The position numbers and the translations under genes are program-made. This document shows, in pieces, positions 1-11,032 of a stretch of DNA of 46,548 bases. Below the pieces are notes generated by a model. The model worked only from the letters and a program-made list of their open reading frames with translations, did not search any database and had not been told where the DNA came from. Source of the stretch: Bacteroidia bacterium. GTDB lineage: Bacteria > Bacteroidota > Bacteroidia > Bacteroidales > VadinHA17. Location of the stretch: positions 1 to 46,548 of the forward strand of contig JAPLED010000091.1 of NCBI GenBank assembly GCA_026391475.1, read 5' to 3'. Numbering within the stretch: the first letter of the stretch is position 1; the number at the start of each line of letters is the position of its first letter.

Positions 1-167
1 TCTTCCAATCCTAAAACGCTGAATCGTAACATTTCTCTCGGGAATGAATCTTCTTCTGTTGATAGGGAGCAGATGGCAGTACAATTACCGCAATTATAGC
101 ATGCGTTAAAATCGAATGCTCCATAATTTCTTAATTTCTTCCCGAATTCTGGATTAATCGCAGCCAT
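1..167 (-). CDS. HdrC-like 4Fe-4S protein, N-terminal part (cut by window edge)
   Basis: This is the first 55 codons of a leftward gene that runs off the window. The start codon overlaps the upstream stop by one base (TAATG), so it belongs to the same operon. The protein starts MAAINPEFGKKL and soon shows CYNCGNCTAIC (Cys-x2-Cys-x2-Cys-x3-Cys), followed by a Pro-Arg-Glu stretch. This is the usual beginning of HdrC, or of the HdrC half of QmoC, which carries two 4Fe-4S clusters and passes electrons between the HdrA flavoprotein and HdrB or a membrane cytochrome b. Which partner is present cannot be told, because the rest lies outside. The HdrC-type assignment is well supported; the choice between HdrC and QmoC is open. 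Confidence 0.75.
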   Translation of the reverse strand, partial: MAAINPEFGKKLRNYGAFDFNACYNCGNCTAICSLSTEEDSFPREMLRFSVLGLE

Positions 168-445
168 TATTTTTTAAGTTTGTAAGAAAAATATTCATCC
201 ATATCATCAACTGCATCCGTTTGCACAAAACCATATTTTACAAGTGACATCAGGTAGTAAACAACCTCATGTTTTGGCATATTGAGTTTTTGTGTTAATT
301 GTTCAATAGTCAAGTCGCTTTCCTGAAGAGCTTCCAGTATTGATTTTTTTATCTTGCTGAATTGTTTCTGGTTATCTTTTGCTGCCTGAGTAACTTCCCT
401 TTTCTCTCTCAGGTATTTATATGTTTTCCCTTTCTCAATATCCAT
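167..445 (-). CDS. Small winged-helix protein inside the Hdr operon
   Basis: A 92-residue basic protein with a predicted winged helix at about residues 30-80: a helix (SKIKKSILEALQES), then LTIEQLTQKLNMPKHEVVYYLMSL as helix-turn-helix, then a short wing. It has no cysteines or ligand domain. It lies between the full-length hdrA gene (41-bp gap) and the hdrC-like gene (1-bp overlap), so it is made with the complex. Small winged-helix proteins occur in some hdr/mvhD operons and may be regulators or structural subunits; the sequence does not decide. The charged N-terminus (about residues 4-30) is probably helical. The function is not known to me beyond the fold. Confidence 0.7.
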   Translation of the reverse strand: MDIEKGKTYKYLREKREVTQAAKDNQKQFSKIKKSILEALQESDLTIEQLTQKLNMPKHEVVYYLMSLVKYGFVQTDAVDDMDEYFSYKLKK

Positions 446-486
446 GGTACATTCTTTTAGATAAACACAACCGTGTATTAATAAAA

Positions 487-2415
487 CTAACCAGCCAGAG
501 CATCAATCATGCTTTCAATCTCACTGTTTGAATAAGCAATTAAATTTATAGCATCGGTGGGGCATACCGGTAAACACATACCACACCCTTTGCAAACGGA
601 GTTATTAATAACTGCAATATCTTTAGTATCTTGCTTCTCCATCTTAATTGCATCAAAAGGGCAGGCTTCAATGCAAGCGCCACACCATGTACAAAGGTCC
701 TTATCAATTTGTGCAATAATGGGTTCGAGTTCCAGTTCTCCTTTACTGACATAAGAGAAAGATTTAGCAGCAGCAGAAAGAGCTGAATTAACAGACTCCA
801 TTATATTTTTGGGACCCTGGCATGCTCCGCAAATGGTTATCCCGTCAATAACAGTCTCCACGGGACGTAATTTCATGTGGATCTCATTGAAAAACTTGTC
901 TCTGCCTTTAGGTATTTTAAAAAGTGATGCCACGGAATTATCCGCCCTCGGCACCATTCCGGTTACTAGTACAACCAGGTCTGCTTCGACTGACATTTCT
1001 CTTTTTGCTGTCAGGATATCATTGATCTTAACTATTGTTTTATCATGCTCCCTAAAAACAACAGGAGGATCATTTTCATACGATTGCAGGTAAATATCCC
1101 CATCTTTCAAAGATTCACCGTATAAAACCTCCTGCTTTCCGTAGGTTCTGATCCCCCGGGTAAAATGGTAATTATAAATGTTATCAAAAATTTTCTTTGT
1201 CTGGATTGCTGAATAAATAGCTGAAGTGCAGCAATAACGTGAACAATATTTATTTTCTCCCTCTATCTGGCGGCTTCCGACGCAGTAGATATAGGCGATA
1301 TTTTTAACTTCTTTCCCTTTGAATATTAATTTTTTATCGCTCAGTTCAATTATACGTTTGAATTGAGGAAGGGTTATAACATTATCAAACCGGTTATAAC
1401 CAAACTCACCGTCAGCAGGAGTATAGGAATCGAATCCGGTGGCCATAAGAACTGAGCCAACCTGTATCTCAATAATTTCTTCTTTCTGATTGAAGTCAAC
1501 GCTTTCACAGATCTTTTCGCATTCACCGCAACGGGTGCAGTGTTTTATATCAATTACAGGATATTGCGGATATTCACTGGGGAAATTATGGTAAATCGCT
1601 TTTCTGTTGGTAATGTTAAAATTGAATTCATCGGGCACATCCACAGGACAGGCATTAATAGCTTTTTGCAGATTTCCCTGATTACATTGTTCATTTATAT
1701 AACGTGGTGCTATTTTAATTTTCAATTTGAAGTCGCCGATACACCCCTTATTGGAAATTACTTCGGCTCCTGTAAATAATGTGATGTTATCTCGTTTTAC
1801 CAGGTCATTATACAACTTGGTTACCAGTTCTTTCCCTGTTTCGTTGGTAGTAAAGAGCACATCCCATTGAGCAACCCTGCCACCTATAAAATGTTCTCTT
1901 TCTATCAGTGTTACAGGACATCCCATGTTTGACAATTCGATAGCTGCTCTCATACCTGCAACACCGCCACCGATTATAGCAACGGCCTTTTTAGAAGGGA
2001 TTTTGAAAGGGTTAAGTGATTCGGCGAGACGTACTTTAGCAATTGCCGATTTTACTATATGTATGGCTTTTTCTGTAGCCCCTGCTTTATCATCAGAATG
2101 TGCCCATGAAGCCTGTTCCCTGATATTTGCATGGACATAGTGGTATTTATTTAAATCAGCTCTTTCCGTAACTGCCCTGAAGGTCATCAGGTGGAGTTTT
2201 GGAGAGCATGAAGCTACAACGACTCCGTCCAACTCATTTTTCTTTATATCATCAACCATCTCTTTCTGGTTGGCATCGCCACAGGCAAACATAGTAGTCT
2301 TTGCCAGGAAAACACCCTCCTCATTTTCAATTGACTTCCTGACCTTTTCAACGTCAACATAGTCGGAGATGTTTCCGCCACAGTGGCATAAATAAACGCC
2401 TATTTTTTTGTTCAT
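487..2415 (-). CDS. HdrA-like FAD/iron-sulfur protein, full length (HdrA/QmoB type)
   Basis: A 642-residue HdrA-family flavoprotein that would move electrons between FAD and several 4Fe-4S clusters in the cytoplasm. In order: an N-terminal HdrA domain (GVYLCHCGGNIS at 6-17, CSP motif at 70-72), an FAD Rossmann motif (IIGGGVAGMRAA at 147-158), an inserted ferredoxin region, the second FAD-binding part, and two C-terminal 4Fe-4S motifs (C575/578/581/585 and C608/611/614/618). In the inserted region the second cluster is intact (C293/296/299/303). The first is degenerate: where the sister subunit has CTGCQLCEQACP, this one has only the outer cysteines (CNQGNLQKAINACP). Start and upstream stop overlap by one base (TAATG), so it is translationally coupled to the QmoA-like gene. 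QmoB is an HdrA fused to MvhD; here the MvhD part is a separate gene. Confidence 0.88.
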   Translation of the reverse strand: MNKKIGVYLCHCGGNISDYVDVEKVRKSIENEEGVFLAKTTMFACGDANQKEMVDDIKKNELDGVVVASCSPKLHLMTFRAVTERADLNKYHYVHANIREQASWAHSDDKAGATEKAIHIVKSAIAKVRLAESLNPFKIPSKKAVAIIGGGVAGMRAAIELSNMGCPVTLIEREHFIGGRVAQWDVLFTTNETGKELVTKLYNDLVKRDNITLFTGAEVISNKGCIGDFKLKIKIAPRYINEQCNQGNLQKAINACPVDVPDEFNFNITNRKAIYHNFPSEYPQYPVIDIKHCTRCGECEKICESVDFNQKEEIIEIQVGSVLMATGFDSYTPADGEFGYNRFDNVITLPQFKRIIELSDKKLIFKGKEVKNIAYIYCVGSRQIEGENKYCSRYCCTSAIYSAIQTKKIFDNIYNYHFTRGIRTYGKQEVLYGESLKDGDIYLQSYENDPPVVFREHDKTIVKINDILTAKREMSVEADLVVLVTGMVPRADNSVASLFKIPKGRDKFFNEIHMKLRPVETVIDGITICGACQGPKNIMESVNSALSAAAKSFSYVSKGELELEPIIAQIDKDLCTWCGACIEACPFDAIKMEKQDTKDIAVINNSVCKGCGMCLPVCPTDAINLIAYSNSEIESMIDALAG

Positions 2416-3713
2416 TATTTCCGGATTAAGTAACTCATTGCTTCAGAGGATGCAGCACCTGCTGACAAGATAGAGTCAGGAATATCCATTGGTCCTGAAG
2501 CAGTACCTGCAACAAAAACTCCTTTAATACTTGTTTTTGCAGGGCTGGCAAGAGGATCGGTCTGGTAAACAAAATTGAATGGATCGAGTTTTAATTCTCC
2601 GTCAGGAAACAGAGCGGCACTGTCGGTGTTGGGAAGGACACCAACCGACAGTACTACTATGTCGTGTTCAGCCTCCTTTACGATATTTTCATTAATATCT
2701 TCGTAACGCATTATAAGGTTCCCATTCTCTTTTTCCGAAATACGTCCGATTTTACCTTTAATAAAGTTCACGCCCATTCCTTTTGCCTGGTCATAAAATT
2801 CTTCAAATCCTTTACCAAACGATCTGATGTTAATGTAATAAATAGTCACATCAGCCATAGGCAGTGCACCCATAAGTAATTGTGCCTGCTTAATTGAATA
2901 CATGCAACAGATCTGTGAGCAGATAGGATTACCTACTGTGACATCTCTTGATCCTGTACAAAGAACATAAGCAATTTTGTCGGGAACTTTTCCATCTCCC
3001 GGCCTCAGAATGGTATTAAATGGTCGGGTCGGGGCCAATTGCCTCTCCATCTGCATGGAAGTAATTATATTTTTATAGAGCCCATACCCATACCGCGGCA
3101 TCATAAGCGGGTCGAACAGGTTAAAGCCTGTGGCAATAACAACTGTTTTAGCCTTGATATGATATTCTTCGGTCTCCTGGGTAAAGTCAATGCATTTTGT
3201 CGGACAAACCTTTTCACAGGCGCCGCACAATGTGCAATTTTCAATATCTATGGCAGCTACCCTGGGGCTGGCAATGCTAAATGGGATATATGCTGCTTTA
3301 CGTCCGATAAGGTTATATTGGTACTGATCATGCACGTTCACCGGACATGCCTGTTCGCATAGCTGGCAGCCGGTACAATCTTCAGCAATAACATATCGTG
3401 GGGTTTTAATAACTTCGGCTTCGAAGCTGTTTTCAGCTTTTCTTATAATTTTTCTTACTTCGCTTCCTGTAAATATTGTAATTCCTGGATGCCTGGAAAT
3501 TTCTGATACTTTTGGTGTTGTAATACATGCTGAACAATCCAAAGTAGGAAAAACCTTGCTTAACAAAATCATTTTACCACCAATAGAAAGATCTTTTTCG
3601 ATTATTAATACCTTAAATCCATTATTGACTAAATTTAAAGCAGCTTCACCACCGGCAATTCCACCACCAATAACAAGTGCATCAAAAGAGGTATTTAATA
3701 TTTTCCCATGCAT
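2415..3713 (-). CDS. Short HdrA / QmoA-like flavin iron-sulfur protein
   Basis: A 432-residue flavoprotein of the HdrA family lacking the N-terminal HdrA domain and the C-terminal ferredoxin pair, as in QmoA. The FAD motif is at 15-25 (IGGGIAGGEAA). The HdrA signature around C60/C63 (LDCSACITTPK) follows, then two complete 4Fe-4S motifs: C113/116/119/123 and C160/163/166/170. The C-terminal FAD motif (KGVFVAGTASGPMDIPDSI) is present. In sulfate reducers QmoA pairs with QmoB and QmoC to link quinones and APS reductase; no aprAB or dsrAB is seen here, so a different partner is likely. The gene starts 2 bp after the MvhD-like stop and overlaps the next start, so it is an operon member. Confidence 0.87.
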   Translation of the reverse strand: MHGKILNTSFDALVIGGGIAGGEAALNLVNNGFKVLIIEKDLSIGGKMILLSKVFPTLDCSACITTPKVSEISRHPGITIFTGSEVRKIIRKAENSFEAEVIKTPRYVIAEDCTGCQLCEQACPVNVHDQYQYNLIGRKAAYIPFSIASPRVAAIDIENCTLCGACEKVCPTKCIDFTQETEEYHIKAKTVVIATGFNLFDPLMMPRYGYGLYKNIITSMQMERQLAPTRPFNTILRPGDGKVPDKIAYVLCTGSRDVTVGNPICSQICCMYSIKQAQLLMGALPMADVTIYYINIRSFGKGFEEFYDQAKGMGVNFIKGKIGRISEKENGNLIMRYEDINENIVKEAEHDIVVLSVGVLPNTDSAALFPDGELKLDPFNFVYQTDPLASPAKTSIKGVFVAGTASGPMDIPDSILSAGAASSEAMSYLIRK

Positions 3714-3715
3714 AA

Positions 3716-4123
3716 TTAAATGATTGAATTTTTGAGTAAATATTCATTTAAGCTTTTCATCTGTTTTACAAAAGATTCGCTGCAGACTGAACAAATGGCA
3801 GCCATCCGTAGACGTGCAGGTTCGATATTCTTTTGTTTCATCAATTCATGAGTACGACTAACTATCTTTCCGGTTTTTTCAGTGCATGATTCGCCATATG
3901 GGCAATCACTTCCATCAGCAGCAATAAAAACCCCATCAAATCCTTTTTCAAAAGCGTGTAATATCCATCTTGATTTTACTCCACTGGAACAAGGAATGGA
4001 AATTGTATAAACCGTAGGCGGGTAATACAATTTAAGTAATCCCGCCATGTCGATGGCGGGATCAGAAATCTTTTCAGTAGAGAATACCAGGATTTTGGCA
4101 CTTTTTATATTCATTCCTGCCAT
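3716..4123 (-). CDS. MvhD-like hydrogenase iron-sulfur subunit
   Basis: A 135-residue protein of the MvhD/FrhD family, the small 2Fe-2S subunit that passes electrons into HdrA. The recognisable core is PCSSGVKSRWILHAFEKGFDGVFIA followed by a glycine and cysteine-rich stretch with C74 and C80, and ARLRMAAICSVC. Cysteines are C45, C74, C80, C111 and C114. The N-terminal CxWC of classical MvhD is missing (FSTEKIS stands there), and the CSVC pair is extra, so cluster ligation may differ. The longest frame opens at a TTG (4129); I chose the ATG at 4123, with the ATG at 4114 an equally good alternative. It sits between tusA and the QmoA-like gene, as expected for a split QmoB. Confidence 0.75.
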   Translation of the reverse strand: MAGMNIKSAKILVFSTEKISDPAIDMAGLLKLYYPPTVYTISIPCSSGVKSRWILHAFEKGFDGVFIAADGSDCPYGESCTEKTGKIVSRTHELMKQKNIEPARLRMAAICSVCSESFVKQMKSLNEYLLKNSII

Positions 4124-4132
4124 TTTCAAAAT

Positions 4133-4384
4133 TTATTTTTTCTTCATGAAAATCCTGAAAAAACCACTTTCCTCAATTGTACCAAGATATTCATGTCCTT
4201 GCTTAGAACACCATTTTGGAAGATCTGATTTTGTACCCTCATCAGCTGACAATACTTCCATAATTTCTCCTGATTTAATTGTTCCAGCTGCTTTTTTTGC
4301 TTCTAATAGTGGCCCGGGGCAGGCAGTCCCGCGTGCATCGACTATTTTTGTTACCTGTAAGTTTTTTAATTCTTCCGGAGTCAT
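4133..4384 (-). CDS. tusA: TusA-family sulfur carrier protein
   Basis: An 83-residue TusA/SirA-type protein. The hallmark is DARGTACPGPLLEAKKA, with the persulfide-carrying C22 in the CPGP motif; the rest (SGEIMEVLSADEGTKSDLP) follows the two-layer alpha/beta fold. TusA proteins receive sulfane sulfur from desulfurases or rhodaneses and hand it to DsrE-type carriers or biosynthetic enzymes. A second cysteine (KWCSKQGHEYLG) is also common in the family. It is 66 bp after the dsrE-like gene and about 9 bp before the MvhD-like gene. That position, within an Hdr operon, points to dissimilatory sulfur transfer rather than tRNA thiolation. Function in this operon is inferred. Confidence 0.9.
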   Translation of the reverse strand: MTPEELKNLQVTKIVDARGTACPGPLLEAKKAAGTIKSGEIMEVLSADEGTKSDLPKWCSKQGHEYLGTIEESGFFRIFMKKK

Positions 4385-4450
4385 AATTTACAATTTATAA
4401 GGTTGATAATTATTGCAATGATCACATCAATAATTTGTTTTTGACAGATA

Positions 4451-4876
4451 TTAAATGAATAAATTCACATCAGCTTCCTGTGTCGCTGTAATATATGCTC
4501 CGATACCACATATGTCATCGGCAATGTCAATAAAGTCATCGAGTTTTTCGCCTCCCCATATCTTTCCGGCAAGGCCGCAAATATGAATTTTAACATCTGA
4601 AATTGTTTTGCATTCTCTGAAAAATTCTACCCATGTTTTTACTTTAAGGTTTTTTAATGATTGCAAAAACTCAGCTTTCATATTTGGGTTTTCAGCCATC
4701 TGGAGTTTGTCAGGATTGTCCCCGATATCTTTTCTGAATGCCCTGGCCCCCTGTAACAAGACATAGATATCAACTTTCATATCATCAGCTACTGCGCCGC
4801 TAAGAATAATCCCTGCAGCTGTCAGTTTATCAACGCTTCCTGAAAATAGACCCAAGCACATTTTTTTCTGTTCCAT
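4451..4876 (-). CDS. DsrE-family sulfur carrier (DsrE/DsrE2-like)
   Basis: A 141-residue protein of the DsrE/DsrF/DrsH-like fold: MCLGLFSGSVDKLTAAGIILSGAVA is the first beta-alpha unit, DVKIHICGLAGKIWG carries a cysteine (C100) at the place where DsrE proteins hold the sulfur-binding Cys, and DDICGIGAYI adds C123. C7 and C89 are further candidates. DsrE proteins accept and donate sulfane sulfur, often with TusA as partner. It is the first gene of the leftward hdr operon, 127 bp from the divergent Crp-type regulator, with a TGTGA-N6-TCACA site between them. The family assignment is fairly sure; whether it is DsrE, DsrE2 or DsrE3 cannot be settled by eye. Confidence 0.75.
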   Translation of the reverse strand: MEQKKMCLGLFSGSVDKLTAAGIILSGAVADDMKVDIYVLLQGARAFRKDIGDNPDKLQMAENPNMKAEFLQSLKNLKVKTWVEFFRECKTISDVKIHICGLAGKIWGGEKLDDFIDIADDICGIGAYITATQEADVNLFI

Positions 4877-4968
4877 AGCGATAGATTTTTATTGTTAATT
4901 AATTCACAAAGGAACCTAATACTTAAGCCGGATTAGTAATAATTGGTGTGAAGCTGCTTAAATTATTT

Positions 4969-4984
4969 TGTGATATAACTCACA
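4969..4984. promoter_or_regulatory. Palindromic Crp-type operator TGTGA-N6-TCACA
   Basis: TGTGATATAACTCACA is a perfect TGTGA/TCACA palindrome with a 6-bp spacer. It lies in the 127-bp region between the leftward dsrE-tusA-hdr operon and the rightward Crp-type regulator gene. It ends 7 bp before a TATCTTTA promoter-like element. An equivalent site precedes the second regulator. Both regulators have the CRP-type SRES-x-x-R recognition helix, which fits this half site. It may control both directions. Confidence 0.75.
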
Positions 4985-4991
4985 TTTTAAT

Positions 4992-4999
4992 TATCTTTA
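4992..4999 (+). promoter_or_regulatory. Probable -7 element of the first Crp-type regulator gene
   Basis: TATCTTTA differs from the Bacteroidota -7 consensus TAnnTTTG in the last base only. It ends 4 bp before the ATG at 5004, so the transcript would be nearly leaderless, unless translation starts elsewhere. The Crp-type palindrome is immediately upstream, where a bound protein would cover the -33 region. Confidence 0.45.
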
Positions 5000-5003
5000 C
5001 AGG

Positions 5004-5681
5004 ATGAAAAATGATTGTAAAATATGTGCAATTAAATCGAAAGCTGCATCAAAATTAAGCGCAGAAGAAATTGAAAAGCTTTCCTTTAGTTGTGCATTGG
5101 TAAAATTCCGTAAAGGGGACTCTCTAATCAGGCAAGGTACCTTTTCTACTAATGTTGCTTATTTGCGAAGCGGATTGGCTAAGGTTCATATTGCAGGACC
5201 CTATCATGAGCAGATTGTCCGTATTGTAAATGCTCCCAGCTATCTGGGATTGCCAACAACATTTGGCGATAAAATAAATCAATACTCCGTTACAGTTATT
5301 GAGGCTGCAGAAGTTTGTTTTATTGATATTAATGCATTTCGTTATTTGCTTAAAGCTAATCATGATTTCTCTTATGAAATTATGTTAGAATTATGCAGGA
5401 ATGAATTAGAAGTGTTTCACAGATGCGCAAACAGGACTCAAAAGCAAATGAGAGGTAAAATCGCAGATGTTTTAATAGAGTTATCTGAGCGTATTTATAA
5501 CTCCAATATCTTTTATATCCCTCTCACTCAGGAAGATTTAGGGAATCTCGTTGACTCAAGCCGGGAGAGTGTGAGTCGTGTATTAACTGAATTTGAAAAG
5601 GATGGTATAATAAGAATTTCAGGGAAAAAGATTGAAATTCTAAATAAAAAATCTTTATTGATGATTAGCGCAAAGGGATGA
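5004..5681 (+). CDS. Crp/Fnr-family regulator, first copy
   Basis: A 225-residue Crp/Fnr regulator: N-terminal CKIC (C5, C8), cyclic-nucleotide-binding-type beta-roll (residues 30-115), dimer helix, and a C-terminal winged helix with TQEDLGNLVDSSRESVSRVLTEFEKDG. The recognition helix carries Arg-Glu-x-x-x-Arg (SRESVSR), as in E. coli CRP (SRETVGR), which reads TGTGA. Other cysteines are C30 and C105; C105 stands where FNR has its internal cluster cysteine, but the N-terminal spacing differs from FNR, so an iron-sulfur cluster is only possible. It is divergent from the DsrE/TusA/Hdr operon and is the obvious candidate for its control and for autoregulation. Confidence 0.88.
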   Translation: MKNDCKICAIKSKAASKLSAEEIEKLSFSCALVKFRKGDSLIRQGTFSTNVAYLRSGLAKVHIAGPYHEQIVRIVNAPSYLGLPTTFGDKINQYSVTVIEAAEVCFIDINAFRYLLKANHDFSYEIMLELCRNELEVFHRCANRTQKQMRGKIADVLIELSERIYNSNIFYIPLTQEDLGNLVDSSRESVSRVLTEFEKDGIIRISGKKIEILNKKSLLMISAKG

Positions 5682-5740
5682 TTTTCTTTCATTAAGAAAT
5701 CAATATTTCCTTTTTCTGGCATAAACAATAGAAATGGCTT

Positions 5741-5807
5741 ATTAACCTGATTATTATAATAAAATGTGTTTAGTCAGTTAATATGAGAAGTAAAAGATCA
5801 GGTTAAT
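5741..5807. repeat. 11-bp perfect inverted repeat between convergent genes
   Basis: ATTAACCTGAT (5741-5751) and ATCAGGTTAAT (5797-5807) are exact reverse complements separated by 45 bp. The right arm includes the stop codon of the leftward aminotransferase gene; the left arm lies 60 bp beyond the rightward regulator gene. Neither side has a T-run, so it is not a standard intrinsic terminator. It could form a long cruciform or mRNA 3' hairpin on both transcripts. Confidence 0.5.
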
Positions 5808-7303
5808 ATAAACCATCTGGAAAAATCGGCACTATTTTTTTCAGGGAATTTATGATGATAGAATTCATTTGTATGGTTGTCATATCGATAATCCTTCGCC
5901 CATTCTTGTGCCATTTCGGTAGTCTGCCTGATTGCATCGAGAATAAAAAGTAATTCATTATTAGTCATCGTAGGATGAAGTGATAATCTTATCCAGCCGG
6001 GTTTCATCGAAAGGTCACCTGCATCAATTTTATCGGTGATCTCTTTTGAGAGTTTATAATCTACATCTAAAAGAAAGTGACCATAGGTTCCGGCACAGGA
6101 ACAACCCCCTCTTACCTGTATCCCGAACCTGTCATTAAGCAGTCTGGTTATAAGGTTGTGATGTATCTTATCAATATAAAAGGAGAAAACACCCAACCTC
6201 TCCTTAATATTTTCTGCAAGAATATGCAGGTTTTTTATTTTCGACAACTCCCTGAAGGTTAGTTCTATAAGCTCACTTTCTCTTAGATGGATCATTTTTG
6301 TACCCATATTTTCTTTTAAAACTACAGCCAGTGCAGTTTTTATTCCCTGCAGGAATCCCGGAGTCCCTCCATCTTCTTTGGCTTCAATATCAGTTATATA
6401 ACTATATCCACCCCATCGGTTTGTCCATTTTACGGTACCACCTCCAGGACTATCCGGAATATCGTTTTTGTATAGCTTCTTATTGAATATCAGAACTCCT
6501 GCACTGCCTGGTCCGCCAAGAAACTTATGAGGGGAGAAAAAGATGGCATCAAGTTGCTGCATTTTATCAGCAGGATGCATATTTATATCGACATAAGGAG
6601 CAGATGCTGCAAAATCTACAAAACAGTATCCGTTATGCTCGTGCATTATATGCGCCAGTTCATGATAAGGAGGAAAATAACCTGTTACATTTGAACATGC
6701 TGAAAAAGAACCGATGAGTAATGGGCGATCTTTATATTTTACTATCTCTTTACGCAGAGTGTCAGGGTCAACTGTAAGGTCAGAAGAAGGCTCTAAAACA
6801 ACAACATCAGCAAGGGTTTCAAACCACGAAGTATGGTTGGAGTGGTGCTCAGTGTGCGTTAAAAAAACAACCGGACGCTTGTCATTTGGGATGTCCTTGC
6901 ATTTTTCATAATCACCATGTTTAAATACACAGAAGTTTATTGCCTGTTCCGGAACCTTTAAACCAAGAATTCTTTGGAGCTTTGCAATCGCCGATGTCAT
7001 ACCTGTCCCGGTAAAAATCAGAACATCATTATCATCCGCATTTACATGATGCTTGACTATCTTCTGAGCTAGATGATATGCTTTTGTCATTGCATATCCC
7101 GTAGCCGACGATTCAGAATGAGTATTGCCCACAAACGGCCCGATGTCCTCTGAAATTCTATCTTCTATGGGTTTATATAGTCTTCCGCTTGCTATCCAGT
7201 CGGCATATATCAGTTTCTTAGATCCGTAAGGGGTCTCTATTTCTGCCTCAATACCCACAATATTCCTGCGGTAGGGGTCAAAATATTTTTCAAGATCAGA
7301 CAT
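5798..7303 (-). CDS. Class V aminotransferase, cysteine desulfurase-like
   Basis: A 501-residue fold-type I PLP enzyme of the class V (NifS/SufS/Csd) group. The PLP lysine is K260 in FFSPHKFLGGPGSAG; the PLP-stacking His is in TEHHSN (153-154); the aspartate that binds the pyridine nitrogen is in FVDFAASAP. Where SufS enzymes carry the persulfide cysteine, this protein has VRGGCSCAGTYGH with two cysteines, C401 and C403. At 501 residues it is about 95 longer than SufS, mostly at the C-terminus. By family it would remove sulfur, or another beta substituent, from a cysteine-like amino acid. It follows the NifX-like gene by 36 bp on the same strand, and I infer that it feeds sulfur to the nearby TusA/DsrE. 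Actual substrate is unknown. Confidence 0.82.
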   Translation of the reverse strand: MSDLEKYFDPYRRNIVGIEAEIETPYGSKKLIYADWIASGRLYKPIEDRISEDIGPFVGNTHSESSATGYAMTKAYHLAQKIVKHHVNADDNDVLIFTGTGMTSAIAKLQRILGLKVPEQAINFCVFKHGDYEKCKDIPNDKRPVVFLTHTEHHSNHTSWFETLADVVVLEPSSDLTVDPDTLRKEIVKYKDRPLLIGSFSACSNVTGYFPPYHELAHIMHEHNGYCFVDFAASAPYVDINMHPADKMQQLDAIFFSPHKFLGGPGSAGVLIFNKKLYKNDIPDSPGGGTVKWTNRWGGYSYITDIEAKEDGGTPGFLQGIKTALAVVLKENMGTKMIHLRESELIELTFRELSKIKNLHILAENIKERLGVFSFYIDKIHHNLITRLLNDRFGIQVRGGCSCAGTYGHFLLDVDYKLSKEITDKIDAGDLSMKPGWIRLSLHPTMTNNELLFILDAIRQTTEMAQEWAKDYRYDNHTNEFYHHKFPEKNSADFSRWFILT

Positions 7304-7339
7304 ATATGCTTGGAGATTAAACCGGAGAAAAACTTAAAA

Positions 7340-7750
7340 CTATGGGCAACAACAGTAATCACTTTCCATTGTTGCATGGTTCTTCACATAAGAAGTTAAG
7401 GCATTGATGATATTTGTCTCTTCAGTATGAAACACCTCATAATTTATCTTCTGAAGATTCTTTTCAGATTCGCTTGAAATGCCTGAGACAATAGCAATTT
7501 GCCGGTTTAATTTGTTCTTGTTTTTCAGATTAACAGTATTTAGAATATTCTCTTCTGGCAGGGCATTATCTCTGAGTTCTTTTAAACCGAAAGGGTATTT
7601 ATCTCTCAGTTCATTTGCAACAGTAATGAAAGAATCTTCCTTTATTGACCCATTAATAATTGTCAACAACCTGAATGCTATCGCATTTTCAAAATCGGGA
7701 GCTACTGTTAAGCAATCATTTGTAGGTATCAGCATTTCCATTTTATCCAT
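7340..7750 (-). CDS. NifX/NifB-type (dinitrogenase FeMo-cofactor-like) domain protein with CCCP tail
   Basis: A 136-residue protein resembling the NifX/NafY-type domain: N-terminal LIPTNDCLTVAPDFENAIAF (family members read IPTDDG..vs.HFGrA), then RQIAIVSGISSESEKNLQKINYEVFHTE and a final helix ALTSYVKN. Such domains bind iron-sulfur or FeMo-type cluster precursors. The protein ends in Tyr-Cys-Cys-Cys-Pro (C133-135), a possible metal or sulfur site. It is the first gene of a leftward pair with the desulfurase-like gene and is divergent from the second Crp-type regulator. It may be a cluster carrier or sulfur acceptor. The domain call is moderate; the first Met is chosen, although M4 or M6 are possible. 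Confidence 0.6.
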   Translation of the reverse strand: MDKMEMLIPTNDCLTVAPDFENAIAFRLLTIINGSIKEDSFITVANELRDKYPFGLKELRDNALPEENILNTVNLKNKNKLNRQIAIVSGISSESEKNLQKINYEVFHTEETNIINALTSYVKNHATMESDYCCCP

Positions 7751-7808
7751 TTTATTATTTGAATATCAGACATTTATATGCCAGACAATCATACAGATTA
7801 CTTTTATC

Positions 7809-7816
7809 CAAAGGTA
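7809..7816 (-). promoter_or_regulatory. Probable -7 element for the NifX-like/desulfurase-like operon
   Basis: On the minus strand the sequence reads TACCTTTG, matching TAnnTTTG. It would start transcription near 7804 and give a leader of about 54 nt. The TGTGA-N6-TCACA site at 7871-7886 would then be centred roughly 74 bp upstream, a position that fits activation by a Crp-type protein. No clear -33 element is seen. Confidence 0.45.
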
Positions 7817-7870
7817 AGTTTGATAACCCATTATGTTCCATTATGCGGTGTGATTGTAAACAATGAAAAA

Positions 7871-7886
7871 TGTGATAATTGTCACA
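7871..7886. promoter_or_regulatory. Palindromic Crp-type operator TGTGA-N6-TCACA (second site)
   Basis: TGTGATAATTGTCACA is a perfect palindrome of the same form as the site at 4969-4984. It ends 10 bp before the TATCTTTG promoter element of the rightward regulator gene, so bound protein would overlap that promoter's -33 region (autorepression is likely). It also lies about 120 bp upstream of the leftward NifX-like gene. Confidence 0.78.
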
Positions 7887-7896
7887 AAAAAGTATA

Positions 7897-7904
7897 TATC
7901 TTTG
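7897..7904 (+). promoter_or_regulatory. -7 promoter element of the second Crp-type regulator gene
   Basis: TATCTTTG matches TAnnTTTG exactly. Transcription would begin near 7910 and leave a leader of about 14 nt before the ATG at 7924. This decides the start: the in-frame TTG at 7879 lies upstream of the promoter and inside the operator, so it cannot be the start of this transcript. Confidence 0.6.
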
Positions 7905-7923
7905 CAGATCAGATCAATGTAAA

Positions 7924-8625
7924 ATGATACCAGACGAAGATATTATTAATATCAGATGTAGAGATTGTCTCGACAAATCTTGTGCTACTGCTGTACTTGA
8001 TATCAGGGAAATGGACTCAATATTCAGGAACCGATATTTAAACGAGGTTAAAAAAGGAACTAATATTTTAAATGAAGGATCACCAACCTCACATATAATA
8101 TATTTACGTTCCGGGTTGGTTAAAGAGTTTATTAACAGACCGGATAATCAGGAGCAGATACTTCAGATAATTCTTCCTCATTCATATCTTGGATTGACAT
8201 CCATATTTGGCGACAAGGTTAACCATTATTCTTATACTGCACTGACAGATCTCAGGTTATGCTATATTGATATTGATGTCTTCACTACCCTTGTTAAAGA
8301 CAATGGAAATTTTGCATATGAGATACTGACTTCAGTAGGCAGGGAAAGCCTTAATAGCTTTCACAGGTTTATTGACCAGAATCACAAGAAGATATATGGA
8401 CGAATTGCCGATATTCTTATTTATTTCTCAAAAATTATTTTTTTAGATAATAAATTTCAAATACCATTAACGAGGCAGGAAATAGCTGATATGGTAGGCA
8501 CTTCAAGAGAGAGTACCGGAAGAGTCCTTGCTAAATTCCAGGGTGAAGGAATAATAGATACCCATGGAAGAAATATAATTATTAATGATATAGTTAAACT
8601 GGAAAAGATCAGCAGATATGGTTGA
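7924..8625 (+). CDS. Crp/Fnr-family regulator with FNR-like cysteine set, second copy
   Basis: A 233-residue Crp/Fnr regulator. Cysteines C12, C15 and C20 (CRDCLDKSC) precede the beta-roll and C113 lies in LRLCYIDIDVF, which aligns with the FNR segment containing C122. The C20-C113 distance is 93, the same as FNR C29-C122, so a 4Fe-4S sensor of oxygen or NO is plausible. The DNA-binding helix TRQEIADMVGTSRESTGRVLAKFQ has the CRP-type Arg-Glu-x-x-x-Arg, suiting the TGTGA half sites next to it, not the TTGAT of FNR. It shares layout and sequence with the first regulator, so the two are paralogues. The start was placed at ATG 7924, because an upstream TTG falls in the operator. Confidence 0.87.
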   Translation: MIPDEDIINIRCRDCLDKSCATAVLDIREMDSIFRNRYLNEVKKGTNILNEGSPTSHIIYLRSGLVKEFINRPDNQEQILQIILPHSYLGLTSIFGDKVNHYSYTALTDLRLCYIDIDVFTTLVKDNGNFAYEILTSVGRESLNSFHRFIDQNHKKIYGRIADILIYFSKIIFLDNKFQIPLTRQEIADMVGTSRESTGRVLAKFQGEGIIDTHGRNIIINDIVKLEKISRYG

Positions 8626-8866: not shown

Positions 8867-11032
8867 TCAATCCCGCAAACAACGAACAGAAAACCCACTT
8901 CGCTTACTGAAGTTGGGGCTGTACACATTACTGAAATTGCAGCTCATGCCCCGAGGCCAGGCAATTGTAGTAGAGGTCGATGTAGAAGACCACCAGTTAC
9001 CGTTGTACCCAACAGAGCTGAACTCCCCACTGTAATTACGGAAGCCACCCGGAAGGGCTGTAAAGCCCGTTTCGTTGGTGGCACCGGTGTTGGGGCTTAT
9101 CCAATGGGCTGTGCCGGATTCTTTTAGTTTACCACCGGCAACACTTTCACCGCCCAAATATGTTGTAAGGGTAGTCCATTCGTCATCGCTTGGTACATGC
9201 CAACCTATTGGGCAAAGTTTCCCGGTGTTGACTGTGTACCAATTGTACAGAGCTCCATAGGTTACCACACTGTTATCGTACCAACAATATCCCTGAGATG
9301 AAAGATTGCTCCAAGCGTAATTGTCTGTCACCAATAGGATGGCTGTATTATCATTGTATTTGGTTGTTTTCAGGTTCTTTGTCATCCATTCCTGATTTCC
9401 AATAGTTACGGTTGAATAAGTATTGCCATCCACATCGGAAACTGTGCCTTGGGAAATTAGTTGTGTTATAAATGAGATCTGACTTCCATAAGCTGTGCCT
9501 GCACTATTAGTTGCATAAGCCCTAACATAATATAAACGACCTGATGTTAATCCTGTTATTGAACTTGTAAAGCTGCCGGTGCCAGTTCCATTTGCAGTCT
9601 TACTGTCGGATGTGGTTGGAGAAGCAGTTGTACTCCAACAAACGCCTCGAATTGTTACTGTTGCTCCACCATCTGAAGAAACAGTACCTCCACTTATAGC
9701 CGAAGTGGCTGTAATAGATGAAGCATTAGTGGTTGTGATTGTCGGAAGTTGGATTTGAGTTGATGACGTTATAAAAGAAGCATTGTTACCATACGCAGTC
9801 CCTGCACTGTTGGTTGCATAAGCCCTTACATAATAGGTTGTACCTAAAGTTAATCCAGCTATTGAACTTGTGAAAACGCCTGTTCCTGTGCCGTCTATTG
9901 ATTTGCTATCAGCAAGTGTCGGGTTTTGACTTGTGCTCCAACAAACTCCACGAGCAGTAATAGTTGCTCCACCATCAGAGGTTATATTGCCACCACTTAT
10001 GGCAGTTGTAGGTGTAATCCCGGTTATTGTAGATGTTGTAATTGTGGAAAGTTCTGCCAATGTTGTAAAACTTACCTCATTTCCATAAGAAGTTCCTACG
10101 CTGTTGGTAGCATAAGCTCTTACATAATATATAGTCCCGGGCTGTAGACTTGTTAGATTACTAACGAAACTTCCAATTCCTGTTCCATCAGTGGTTTTAC
10201 TATTAGCAGTTGTCGGGTTTGTTATTGTGCCCCAACAAACACCTCTTGCGGTCACAGATTCTCCATTATCAGCTGTTATATTTCCTCCTGAGATTGCTGT
10301 TGTTTGGGTAATTGAAGTAATTGCTGTCGTTATCAAAACAGGAACTGCAACCTGGTTGGTAATAAATGATACCTGATTGCCATAACCGGTACCCGCACTA
10401 TTGGTGGCATATGCTTTTACATAATATTTAGTATTTGTTGTAAGCTGGTTAAGATTGCTTGTAAAAACTCCTAATCCACCAGTTTCAGTTGTCTTACTAT
10501 TTGTAATATTTGGATTAACAGATTTATTCCAACAGACTCCTCTTGCGATCACAGATCCTCCGTTATCTGCTGTAATATTTCCTCCTGAGACTGCAGTCGT
10601 TTGAGTAATTGAAGTTATTTCTATTGTTGTCAGAACAGGAACTGCAATCTGGACGGTTGTAAAAGATACCTCATTGCCATAACCTGTACCAGCACTATTT
10701 GTTGCATAGGCTCGAACATAATAAATTGTGCCAGTTGTTAGTCCAGTTAATGCGCTTACAAAACTACCAGTGCCAGCACTATCAAGAGTTTTATTGTCGG
10801 ATATTGTCGGCGTATTGAATGTGCTCCAACATACTCCTCTTGATAATACAGTTTCTCCTCCATCGCTTGTTACATTTCCGCCACTTGATGCAGTGGTTTG
10901 TGTTATTAAGGATGCTGCTGTAGTGGTAAGGAGTGGTTCTTTATTTTTTTTGCACCCTGTTAAACTGGCAACAACTATAAGTAACAACAACGCATTTAGA
11001 GTTTTCAAAAATTTGAGATTTATTTTCTGCAT
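8867..11032 (-). CDS. Lipoprotein with five fibronectin-like repeats and C-terminal FISUMP domain
   Basis: A 721-residue exported lipoprotein. Signal peptide 1-26 ends in a lipobox (SLTGC, lipidated C27). Five repeats of about 94 residues follow (34-126, 131-224, 230-324, 328-422, 429-523), each with SGG(N/T), RGVCW, YYV(R/K)AYATNS and YGN/YGS, typical of surface beta-sandwich repeats. Residues 530-720 form a Fibrobacter succinogenes major paralogous domain (FISUMP): VTIGNQEWMTKNLK, GALYNWYTV, CPIGWHVPSDDEWTTL, ALPGGFRNYSG, WWSSTST, GFSVRCLRD. The conserved Cys in each RGVCW repeat is notable. These proteins are surface exposed, perhaps in adhesion or gliding-type secretion; the exact role is unknown. 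No neighbour is clearly linked to it. Confidence 0.85.
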   Translation of the reverse strand: MQKINLKFLKTLNALLLLIVVASLTGCKKNKEPLLTTTAASLITQTTASSGGNVTSDGGETVLSRGVCWSTFNTPTISDNKTLDSAGTGSFVSALTGLTTGTIYYVRAYATNSAGTGYGNEVSFTTVQIAVPVLTTIEITSITQTTAVSGGNITADNGGSVIARGVCWNKSVNPNITNSKTTETGGLGVFTSNLNQLTTNTKYYVKAYATNSAGTGYGNQVSFITNQVAVPVLITTAITSITQTTAISGGNITADNGESVTARGVCWGTITNPTTANSKTTDGTGIGSFVSNLTSLQPGTIYYVRAYATNSVGTSYGNEVSFTTLAELSTITTSTITGITPTTAISGGNITSDGGATITARGVCWSTSQNPTLADSKSIDGTGTGVFTSSIAGLTLGTTYYVRAYATNSAGTAYGNNASFITSSTQIQLPTITTTNASSITATSAISGGTVSSDGGATVTIRGVCWSTTASPTTSDSKTANGTGTGSFTSSITGLTSGRLYYVRAYATNSAGTAYGSQISFITQLISQGTVSDVDGNTYSTVTIGNQEWMTKNLKTTKYNDNTAILLVTDNYAWSNLSSQGYCWYDNSVVTYGALYNWYTVNTGKLCPIGWHVPSDDEWTTLTTYLGGESVAGGKLKESGTAHWISPNTGATNETGFTALPGGFRNYSGEFSSVGYNGNWWSSTSTSTTIAWPRGMSCNFSNVYSPNFSKRSGFSVRCLRD
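9464..10933 (-). repeat. Five tandem ~290-bp repeats within the FISUMP lipoprotein gene
   Basis: These are DNA copies of the five protein repeats, with a period of about 98 codons. Repeats 2 and 3 share long identical protein stretches (SITQTTA.SGGNITADNG), so one likely arose from the other recently. Such arrays can gain or lose units by recombination, and they are also places where short-read assemblies collapse. Confidence 0.8.

Follow-up and report, generated by a model that had tools for sequence, protein, structure and literature searches.

A sulfur-carrier and Hdr/Qmo operon at a contig end

The window, a stretch of 46,548 bases, is one whole contig (C106) of a 2.8-Mb draft genome (G000, 97.9% complete), and its positions 1–8625 contain ten complete open reading frames, nine of which fit named families in the Pfam and NCBIfam profile collections. 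The subject of this work is an operon that runs on the minus strand from position 4876 to position 1 and encodes a DsrE-family sulfurtransferase, the sulfur carrier TusA, an MvhD/FlpD-like protein, a QmoA-like truncated HdrA, a full-length HdrA, a winged-helix protein of 92 residues and the first 55 codons of a QmoC-like protein. The left edge of the window is the end of the contig, and the operon is broken there. A preliminary description of this DNA had placed DsrE and TusA carriers beside Hdr/Qmo-type proteins in one locus of a Bacteroidota-like genome, together with two Crp-type regulators. Profile matches bear out the carriers, the Hdr/Qmo-type proteins and both regulators, and the taxonomic guess agrees with a genome of the same genus, Bacteroidales bacterium UBA1797 (DCFT01000087.1; G005), whose HdrA-like protein is 84% identical to that of the window.

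The DsrE-family protein (4451–4876; DrsE_2, PF13686, 1.4e-8) carries Cys100, and TusA (4133–4384; PF01206, 1.1e-21) has Cys22 in a CPGP motif; the window has this single DsrE-family gene and no dsrEFH triplet. Downstream lie the MvhD/FlpD variant (3716–4129; PF02662, 1.5e-27), the QmoA-like flavoprotein of 432 residues (2415–3713), which covers positions 139–560 of the 777 in the HdrA2 profile, and, in the position of QmoB, the HdrA-like flavoprotein of 642 residues (487–2415; HdrA2, 6.9e-170). The winged-helix gene (167–445) matches HTH_5 (6.5e-5) and a z-alpha profile, both weakly and just above cut-off. The 55 codons at the contig end (1–166), the first of their gene, encode an HdrC-type ferredoxin domain, as judged from the translation and from a homologue of 347 residues on another contig of the same genome, C2; the membrane part of the gene lies past the edge of the contig.

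Contig C2 ends in a second copy of the operon (G000:C2:28519–30395; L002, L036), which reads from the C-terminus of HdrA through the winged helix and the complete QmoC-like gene into HdrC (228 residues) and an HdrB-like protein (355 residues) with one complete CCG motif. Both contigs break inside the operon and overlap by 866 bases. Because the overlap is just 81.5% identical, joining the window to C2 was rejected, and the two copies are either paralogues of the operon or the product of mixed strains; another genome, G006, likewise has two versions of the operon (contigs C66 and C184). The preliminary description had proposed to look left of position 1 for hdrB and a QmoC gene. The window stops there, and it is the copy on C2 that has QmoC-like, HdrC and HdrB genes in this order. 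It also changes the identity of what had been called an HdrC-like protein, since the 55 codons are the start of a membrane QmoC-like gene that is complete on C2 and in relatives.

In its complete form the QmoC-like protein is an HdrC domain, with eight cysteines, fused to a predicted six-helix membrane anchor; a simple scan of hydropathy shows six stretches that are hydrophobic. Across an alignment of 83 rows (81 distinct) the eight cysteines, His213 and His332 are present in all 83, His313 in 77/83 and His193 in 70/83, a pattern that would fit a di-haem b anchor. Against the NCBIfam qmoC profile (NF038018) the copy on C2 gives a full-length match of 152 bits, under the cut-off of 300; the window itself holds the 55 codons.

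Conservation of the operon and its subunits

A scan of GTDB genome contigs yielded at least 583 relatives, of which the best 80, picked by two peptide patterns, were kept; this set is therefore biased to close relatives. By their labels most of the 80 loci are from Bacteroidota drafts, with three from Aminicenantes, one from Krumholzibacteriia and one from Chlorobiota. Gene order, which the preliminary description had proposed to compare with that of other Bacteroidota, is near-invariant across these loci labelled as several phyla. Where enough upstream sequence was available (56 loci), FlpD and QmoA were found in all 56, TusA in 55 (not in L124) and a DsrE-family gene in 55 (not in L116, which has it downstream on the other strand). 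Where enough downstream sequence was available (61 loci), the QmoC-like gene was found in all 61, and 60 (all but L138) had the winged helix, either as a separate protein or as part of a fusion. The composition of the operon is not due to chance. The number of DsrE-family genes varies, with one in 44 of the 80 loci, two in 13, three in L078 and none recognised in 22, many of which are incomplete. A profile of the FlpD variant (threshold 1e-30, scored on no more than the 10 or 14 best candidates from each genome) matched 52 of 295 genomes of the order, its own included, belonging to 43 of 183 genera, and among 395 genomes of the phylum it matched G000 alone. The distribution is patchy inside one order, and elsewhere in the phylum sample none was seen.

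The preliminary description had named loss of the carrier cysteines in relatives as evidence against a sulfur relay, and these cysteines are kept in every aligned row. Cys22 of TusA is conserved in 64/64 rows (62 distinct) and Cys100 of DsrE in 50/50 (48 distinct); the distinct counts here and below exclude repeats that stem from duplicated genomes (L037 is identical to L059, and L044 to L086). Cys153 of a DsrE2-like protein (32/32) and Cys86 of DsrE122 (8/8) are also invariant. An AlphaFold2 (AF2) model of DsrE superposes on 2qs7 with a TM-score of 0.89.

The FlpD variant has five invariant cysteines, at positions 47, 76, 82, 113 and 116 (79/79 rows, 77 distinct). Alignment with 5odc_D and the invariant columns show that the family lacks the N-terminal CNWC of MvhD, where the N-terminal CxxC has a role in binding a [2Fe-2S] cluster; a canonical FlpD elsewhere in G000 retains CNWC. 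The AF2 model nevertheless has the MvhD fold (TM-score 0.78–0.79 to 5odh_D and 5odc_D). Since five cysteines are invariant and the fold is kept while CNWC is lost, the cluster or catalytic site of FlpD has probably been rewired.

A phylogeny of 30 proteins places the QmoA-like and the QmoB-like sequences in a clade each (both 100/100) on the HdrA side, and those of the window are split with 97/97 support from the QmoAB proteins linked to Apr, for which two genomes of this order (L057 and L058) served as type I references. By this phylogeny they appear not to be orthologues of Apr-linked QmoAB. The two reference loci (G042:C54 and G049:C35, order Bacteroidales) are canonical AprAB-QmoABC operons, and no sulfite reductase domain was found in their genomes.

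The winged-helix protein matches a C-terminal extension of the HdrA-like protein in three relatives (L047, 4e-12; L048, 4e-12; L049, 2e-10). The weak profile matches agree with its presence as first described, and, because it is fused to HdrA in these relatives, it probably belongs to the complex as a subunit; a transcription factor is less likely. In some relatives QmoA also contains an NAD(P)H module of the NfnA type. A domain is inserted into QmoA in the same three relatives and in eight loci of the 80 (L127, L129, L132 and L134–L138); that of L047 matches NfnA (5e-114) and NfnI (1e-83), with its best match (1e-117) to a similar module in a chain that bears the name molybdopterin oxidoreductase, that of L048 has the same Pfam domains, and the remaining insertions were judged from alignment or similarity.

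Separate HdrC-HdrB-HdrA clusters also occur. One is found elsewhere in the genome of the window (L050, G000:C44), and its HdrA of 344 residues matches the 349-residue chain 6tjr_A (6e-60), which we take to be sHdrA. A similar cluster lies downstream of the operon in L047 (12934–17961).

Regulators, neighbours and pathway markers

A regulator of the CRP/FNR type, Crp1 (5004–5681, plus strand; PF00027 and PF13545), diverges from the operon, and its Cys5, Cys8 and Cys105 are conserved in 53, 52 and 52 of 53 rows. Between it and the DsrE gene lies the CRP-type operator TGTGA-N6-TCACA (4969–4984). The motif occurs exactly twice in the window, against 0.01 expected, and it is present in 33 of 53 intergenic regions between Crp1 and the operon (31 of 51 distinct), with a maximum of 5 for any one palindrome in 200 shuffles that preserved base composition alone. 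The second site (7871–7886) precedes another regulator, Crp2 (7879–8625, plus strand; Pfam profiles), and overlaps its first possible start codon, the true start being probably downstream of the operator; the site occupies the same place in G011.

The genes between the two regulators, both on the minus strand, encode a SufS-like class V aminotransferase (5798–7303; PF00266, 4.8e-38) and a protein of 136 residues (7340–7750). A lysine and a cysteine of the former align with those of a solved cysteine desulfurase, where these residues are catalytic. The latter had been labelled NifX-like, a label without support because the protein has no Pfam or NCBIfam match; its homologue in G011 (L197) is 77% identical and also lies beside a SufS-like gene. 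The preliminary description had placed the pair beside the module, with the desulfurase-like enzyme as a partner. Both genes fall outside the operon conserved in the 80 public loci, in the available flanks of which a single weak match to the SufS-like protein was found (26% identity, L138), and they are linked to the operon by position in some genomes of the same genus (G003, G005 and G011). G011 has the second operator between this pair and Crp2-PsrABC-YeeE, and in G006 and G032 the same operator likewise stands ahead of Crp2-PsrABC. The window retains Crp2 and the pair, and other genes replace the PsrABC of G011. Given the matching operator, shared in position with G011, the pair is probably a co-regulated associate of the operon and not part of its core. 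Directly right of Crp2, where G011 has PsrABC, lies an open reading frame for a lipoprotein-like protein of 721 residues (8867–11032, minus strand) with repeated segments of about 90 residues.

A genome-wide scan found nine operator sites in G000 against none in a backwards control, five of the nine inside predicted open reading frames. In 23 other genomes, operon-bearing or not, it found 1–10 sites against 0–4 in the control (4 against 4 in G042, and 1 against 2 in G059). One region of G000 (L169; G000:C41:14000–24001) has two operators 185 bases apart where a hydrogenase operon containing NADHdh, probably of a group 4 [NiFe] enzyme, diverges from Rex and hyp genes; similar operator pairs are found in G003, G005 and G011, and in G025, which is without the sulfur operon. 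Since the motif is present in operon-free genomes and at the hydrogenase/Rex pair of G025, it is a general CRP-type site, and we do not claim an operator regulon that links the sulfur operon to the hydrogenase, given also the sites within open reading frames.

Sulfur genes accompany the operon in some loci. TusA, YedE and rhodanese genes lie directly upstream on the same strand in L111, by profile, and in L071, L110, L120 and L127, by similarity. The upstream sets of L110, L111, L071 and L120 combine a transporter of the YedE type with between two and four rhodanese-like proteins, and there is a porin-like gene seen by eye in L111 and L071; more generally, thioredoxin reductase, porin, Rex, YeeE halves and the rhodaneses outside L111 were named by eye or similarity, without a profile. 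PsrABC genes are near the operon in L048, where PsrA is closest to 2vpw, and in L085, PsrA and PsrC in L078 and L083, and a PsrA-like end in L074. The island in G005 has YedE and PsrABC genes, and two further genes in it weakly resemble type III SQR (34 and 91 bits against a cut-off of 525). HdrB adjoins the operon in 5 of the 80 loci and in some genomes of the same genus. No gene for a lipoate-binding protein was recognised in the loci read, where no profile search was aimed at LbpA.

Pathway markers were surveyed in a set of 60 relatives that includes G000, 14 of them operon-bearing, as assigned by reading the loci, and 46 others; the survey covered the sulfite reductase domain (NIR_SIR), AprA, PsrA and the YedE family. 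The preliminary description had remarked on the absence of dsrAB and aprAB from view, which extends to the whole of G000, where neither NIR_SIR nor AprA gave a match. NIR_SIR was found in 1 of the 60 relatives and in 2 of 50 other operon-bearing genomes taken from the 80 loci, chosen mainly for longer contigs. Each match is a lone gene, in an open frame of 576 codons in G037, 613 in G740 and 586 in G747, and no DsrAB pair is formed; the control genomes matched through other sulfite or nitrite reductases, none having been chosen for DsrAB. Because no NIR_SIR gene pair was present in the genomes searched, we rejected DsrAB as a partner, and chemistry through DsrAB is unlikely. AprA was above cut-off in 2 of 60 genomes, of which 1 of the 14 operon-bearing ones (G042), so that AprAB was also rejected as a partner in the relatives set. 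Constant co-occurrence with an already described pathway, the other observation that the preliminary description had set against its proposal, was not seen, as none of AprA, the YedE family, PsrA and NIR_SIR is constant.

Proposed function and relation to known systems

The composition and order of the operon, its conserved cysteines and histidines, its fusions and its matching operators are read from the sequences, and we think it somewhat more probable than the opposite (roughly 0.55) that its products form a complex that exchanges electrons with carrier-bound sulfane sulfur. This complex would be membrane-bound and would consist of the QmoA-like and full-length HdrA proteins, the variant FlpD, the winged-helix subunit and the QmoC-like anchor, the last with two putative [4Fe-4S] clusters and the predicted di-haem b six-helix domain. 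Polysulfide or thiosulfate would supply the sulfane sulfur, which would travel as persulfide from DsrE to TusA and on to the complex, with TusA docking on FlpD or on the HdrA-like subunit; the S–S bond would be reduced at the complex and sulfide would leave. The electrons may be supplied by menaquinol together with a low-potential cytoplasmic donor and be joined at the HdrA flavins, or, in some relatives, come straight from NAD(P)H through the inserted NfnA-type module. The disulfide chemistry may be carried out by the rewired cysteines of FlpD or by the accessory HdrC-HdrB pair that some genomes have downstream.

We tentatively prefer reduction as the main direction, a choice that falls short of even odds, because some genomes have Psr genes nearby under the same operator, because the two markers of sulfite handling that were searched (NIR_SIR and AprA) are rarely or never present, and because some relatives contain a fused NAD(P)H module. 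A bolder form of the proposal, which we regard as speculative and rather unlikely as a whole, would make the complex a third kind of Hdr machine, in addition to sHdr and the HdrABC of methanogens: a flavin-based confurcating persulfide reductase of the membrane, with TusA docked on the Cys-rich FlpD and with one electron source in menaquinol and another in a low-potential donor or NAD(P)H, which would support Dsr-free cytoplasmic sulfur respiration in many Bacteroidales.

Several observations weigh against electron exchange with sulfane sulfur, or against reduction in particular. The conserved core of the operon is without HdrB, the known disulfide-cleaving site. The local confidence (pLDDT) of the FlpD model is 62–65 at residues 21–30 and 71–80, which are parts of the cysteine region. 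At 1e-60, PsrA is found in 6 of 14 operon-bearing genomes and in 25 of 46 others; it is not enriched, it is absent from G000 at this threshold, and PsrABC as an obligate partner was rejected. The YedE family is not enriched either (8 of 14 against 28 of 46), and G004, G014, G037, G047, G058 and G059 have neither PsrA nor the YedE family. Sulfide oxidation with menaquinone would, moreover, be energetically easier than reduction with menaquinol only.

In the main rival the complex would work like sHdr and oxidise TusA-bound sulfane sulfur to sulfite, passing the electrons to menaquinone. The dsrE3A-tusA-hdr clusters that serve sulfur oxidation in Sulfolobales (PMC8551704, in the part available) are a precedent, the best match of our DsrE model is SSO1126 from Sulfolobus, some copies of the operon have the HdrC-HdrB pair downstream, HdrB with its one complete CCG motif, and weakly SQR-like genes lie nearby in G005. 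The core, however, has no HdrB, the lipoate-binding protein was not recognised in the loci read (by inspection, not by profile), and, for the sulfite-handling markers searched (NIR_SIR and AprA), the genomes showed no DsrAB pair and AprA in 1 of 14. We consider this reading unlikely.

Less likely still, the carriers would feed biosynthesis or repair (Fe-S assembly, thiolation or molybdenum cofactor) and share no more than regulation with an Hdr/Qmo-like complex that has another acceptor. TusA has biosynthetic roles in other bacteria, and the SufS-like gene of the window has a matching operator. A gene order that is all but perfect across loci whose labels span several phyla, the patchy presence in 52 of 295 genomes of the order, unlike that of housekeeping genes, and the YedE-rhodanese and Psr neighbours in some loci argue against this. 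A part in sulfur disproportionation, like that of YTD or DsrEFH type II, is very unlikely: although TusA, the DsrE family and YedE meet in some loci, Qmo has been proposed to oxidise S0 in disproportionators (PMC4911364) and the phyla reported to have DsrEFH type II number 20, Bacteroidota possibly among them (PMC13293266), the YTD DsrE and CHP1–3 are reported only from Desulfobacterota, Nitrospirota and Acidobacteriota (PMC12998232; all three sources as far as available), no DsrAB pair is present, and the YedE family, given above as not enriched, has none of its members beside the window operon, its PF04143 matches in G000 being on contig C33 and none on C106.

If electron exchange with carrier-bound sulfur is correct, about 1 in 6 sampled genomes of the order (43 of 183 genera) would carry a sulfur-linked electron-transfer complex that escapes the standard markers dsrAB, aprAB and sHdr with HdrB, and their cells would probably move electrons on or off sulfur without a classical dissimilatory sulfite reductase. 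Type II Qmo proteins, which are HdrA-like, have also been reported from organisms that lack Dsr and Apr, where their function was posed as an open question (PMC10504309, in the part available); that question would become testable. We found no description of this operon in the literature searched, from which subscription papers were mostly absent, nor in the available parts of PMC9751629, PMC8906906 and PMC12740246. Its kind is already known, as clusters of DsrE, TusA and Hdr occur in sulfur oxidisers (PMC8551704 and PMC6067878, as far as available), and this highly conserved gene set is an unstudied variant of it.

Among the known systems, the Apr-linked QmoABC type I of sulfate reducers and green sulfur bacteria resembles the operon in its pair of HdrA-type flavoproteins and its MvhD-like domain, and the operon adds a QmoC-like subunit predicted to lie in the membrane. 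Here, in contrast, the flavoproteins belong to other clades, FlpD is separate, the full HdrA N-terminus is present, TusA and DsrE are in the operon, and an AprA match is absent from 13 of 14 genomes. Qmo type II, QmoAB(C), with sequences in Ammonifex and Vulcanisaeta, is described as likewise closer to HdrA than to type I QmoAB; the accessible part of that description (PMC10504309) mentions no operon with TusA and DsrE, no FlpD variant and no NfnA-like insertion. The sHdr system (hdrC1B1A-hyp-C2B2, lbpA, dsrE3A-tusA) also has DsrE and TusA adjoining hdr genes and an HdrA of the same family, but it has two HdrB proteins where the core here has none, and the operon adds a predicted membrane protein like QmoC, a second HdrA-type subunit and FlpD. 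YTD and DsrEFH type II combine TusA with DsrE-family genes and sometimes YedE, and the survey of the latter, in its available part, associates dsrEFH with tusA and yedE in bacteria and with qmoAB or dsrMK in archaea (PMC13293266); in the operon described here the electron-transfer complex is the core, YedE is optional, being present in some relatives, and the window has neither a syntenic dsrEFH triplet nor a DsrAB pair. HdrABC-MvhAGD, finally, shares the HdrA and MvhD families and the MvhD fold, whereas the operon has no hydrogenase or HdrB in its core, has lost CNWC and is predicted to encode a complex anchored in the membrane.

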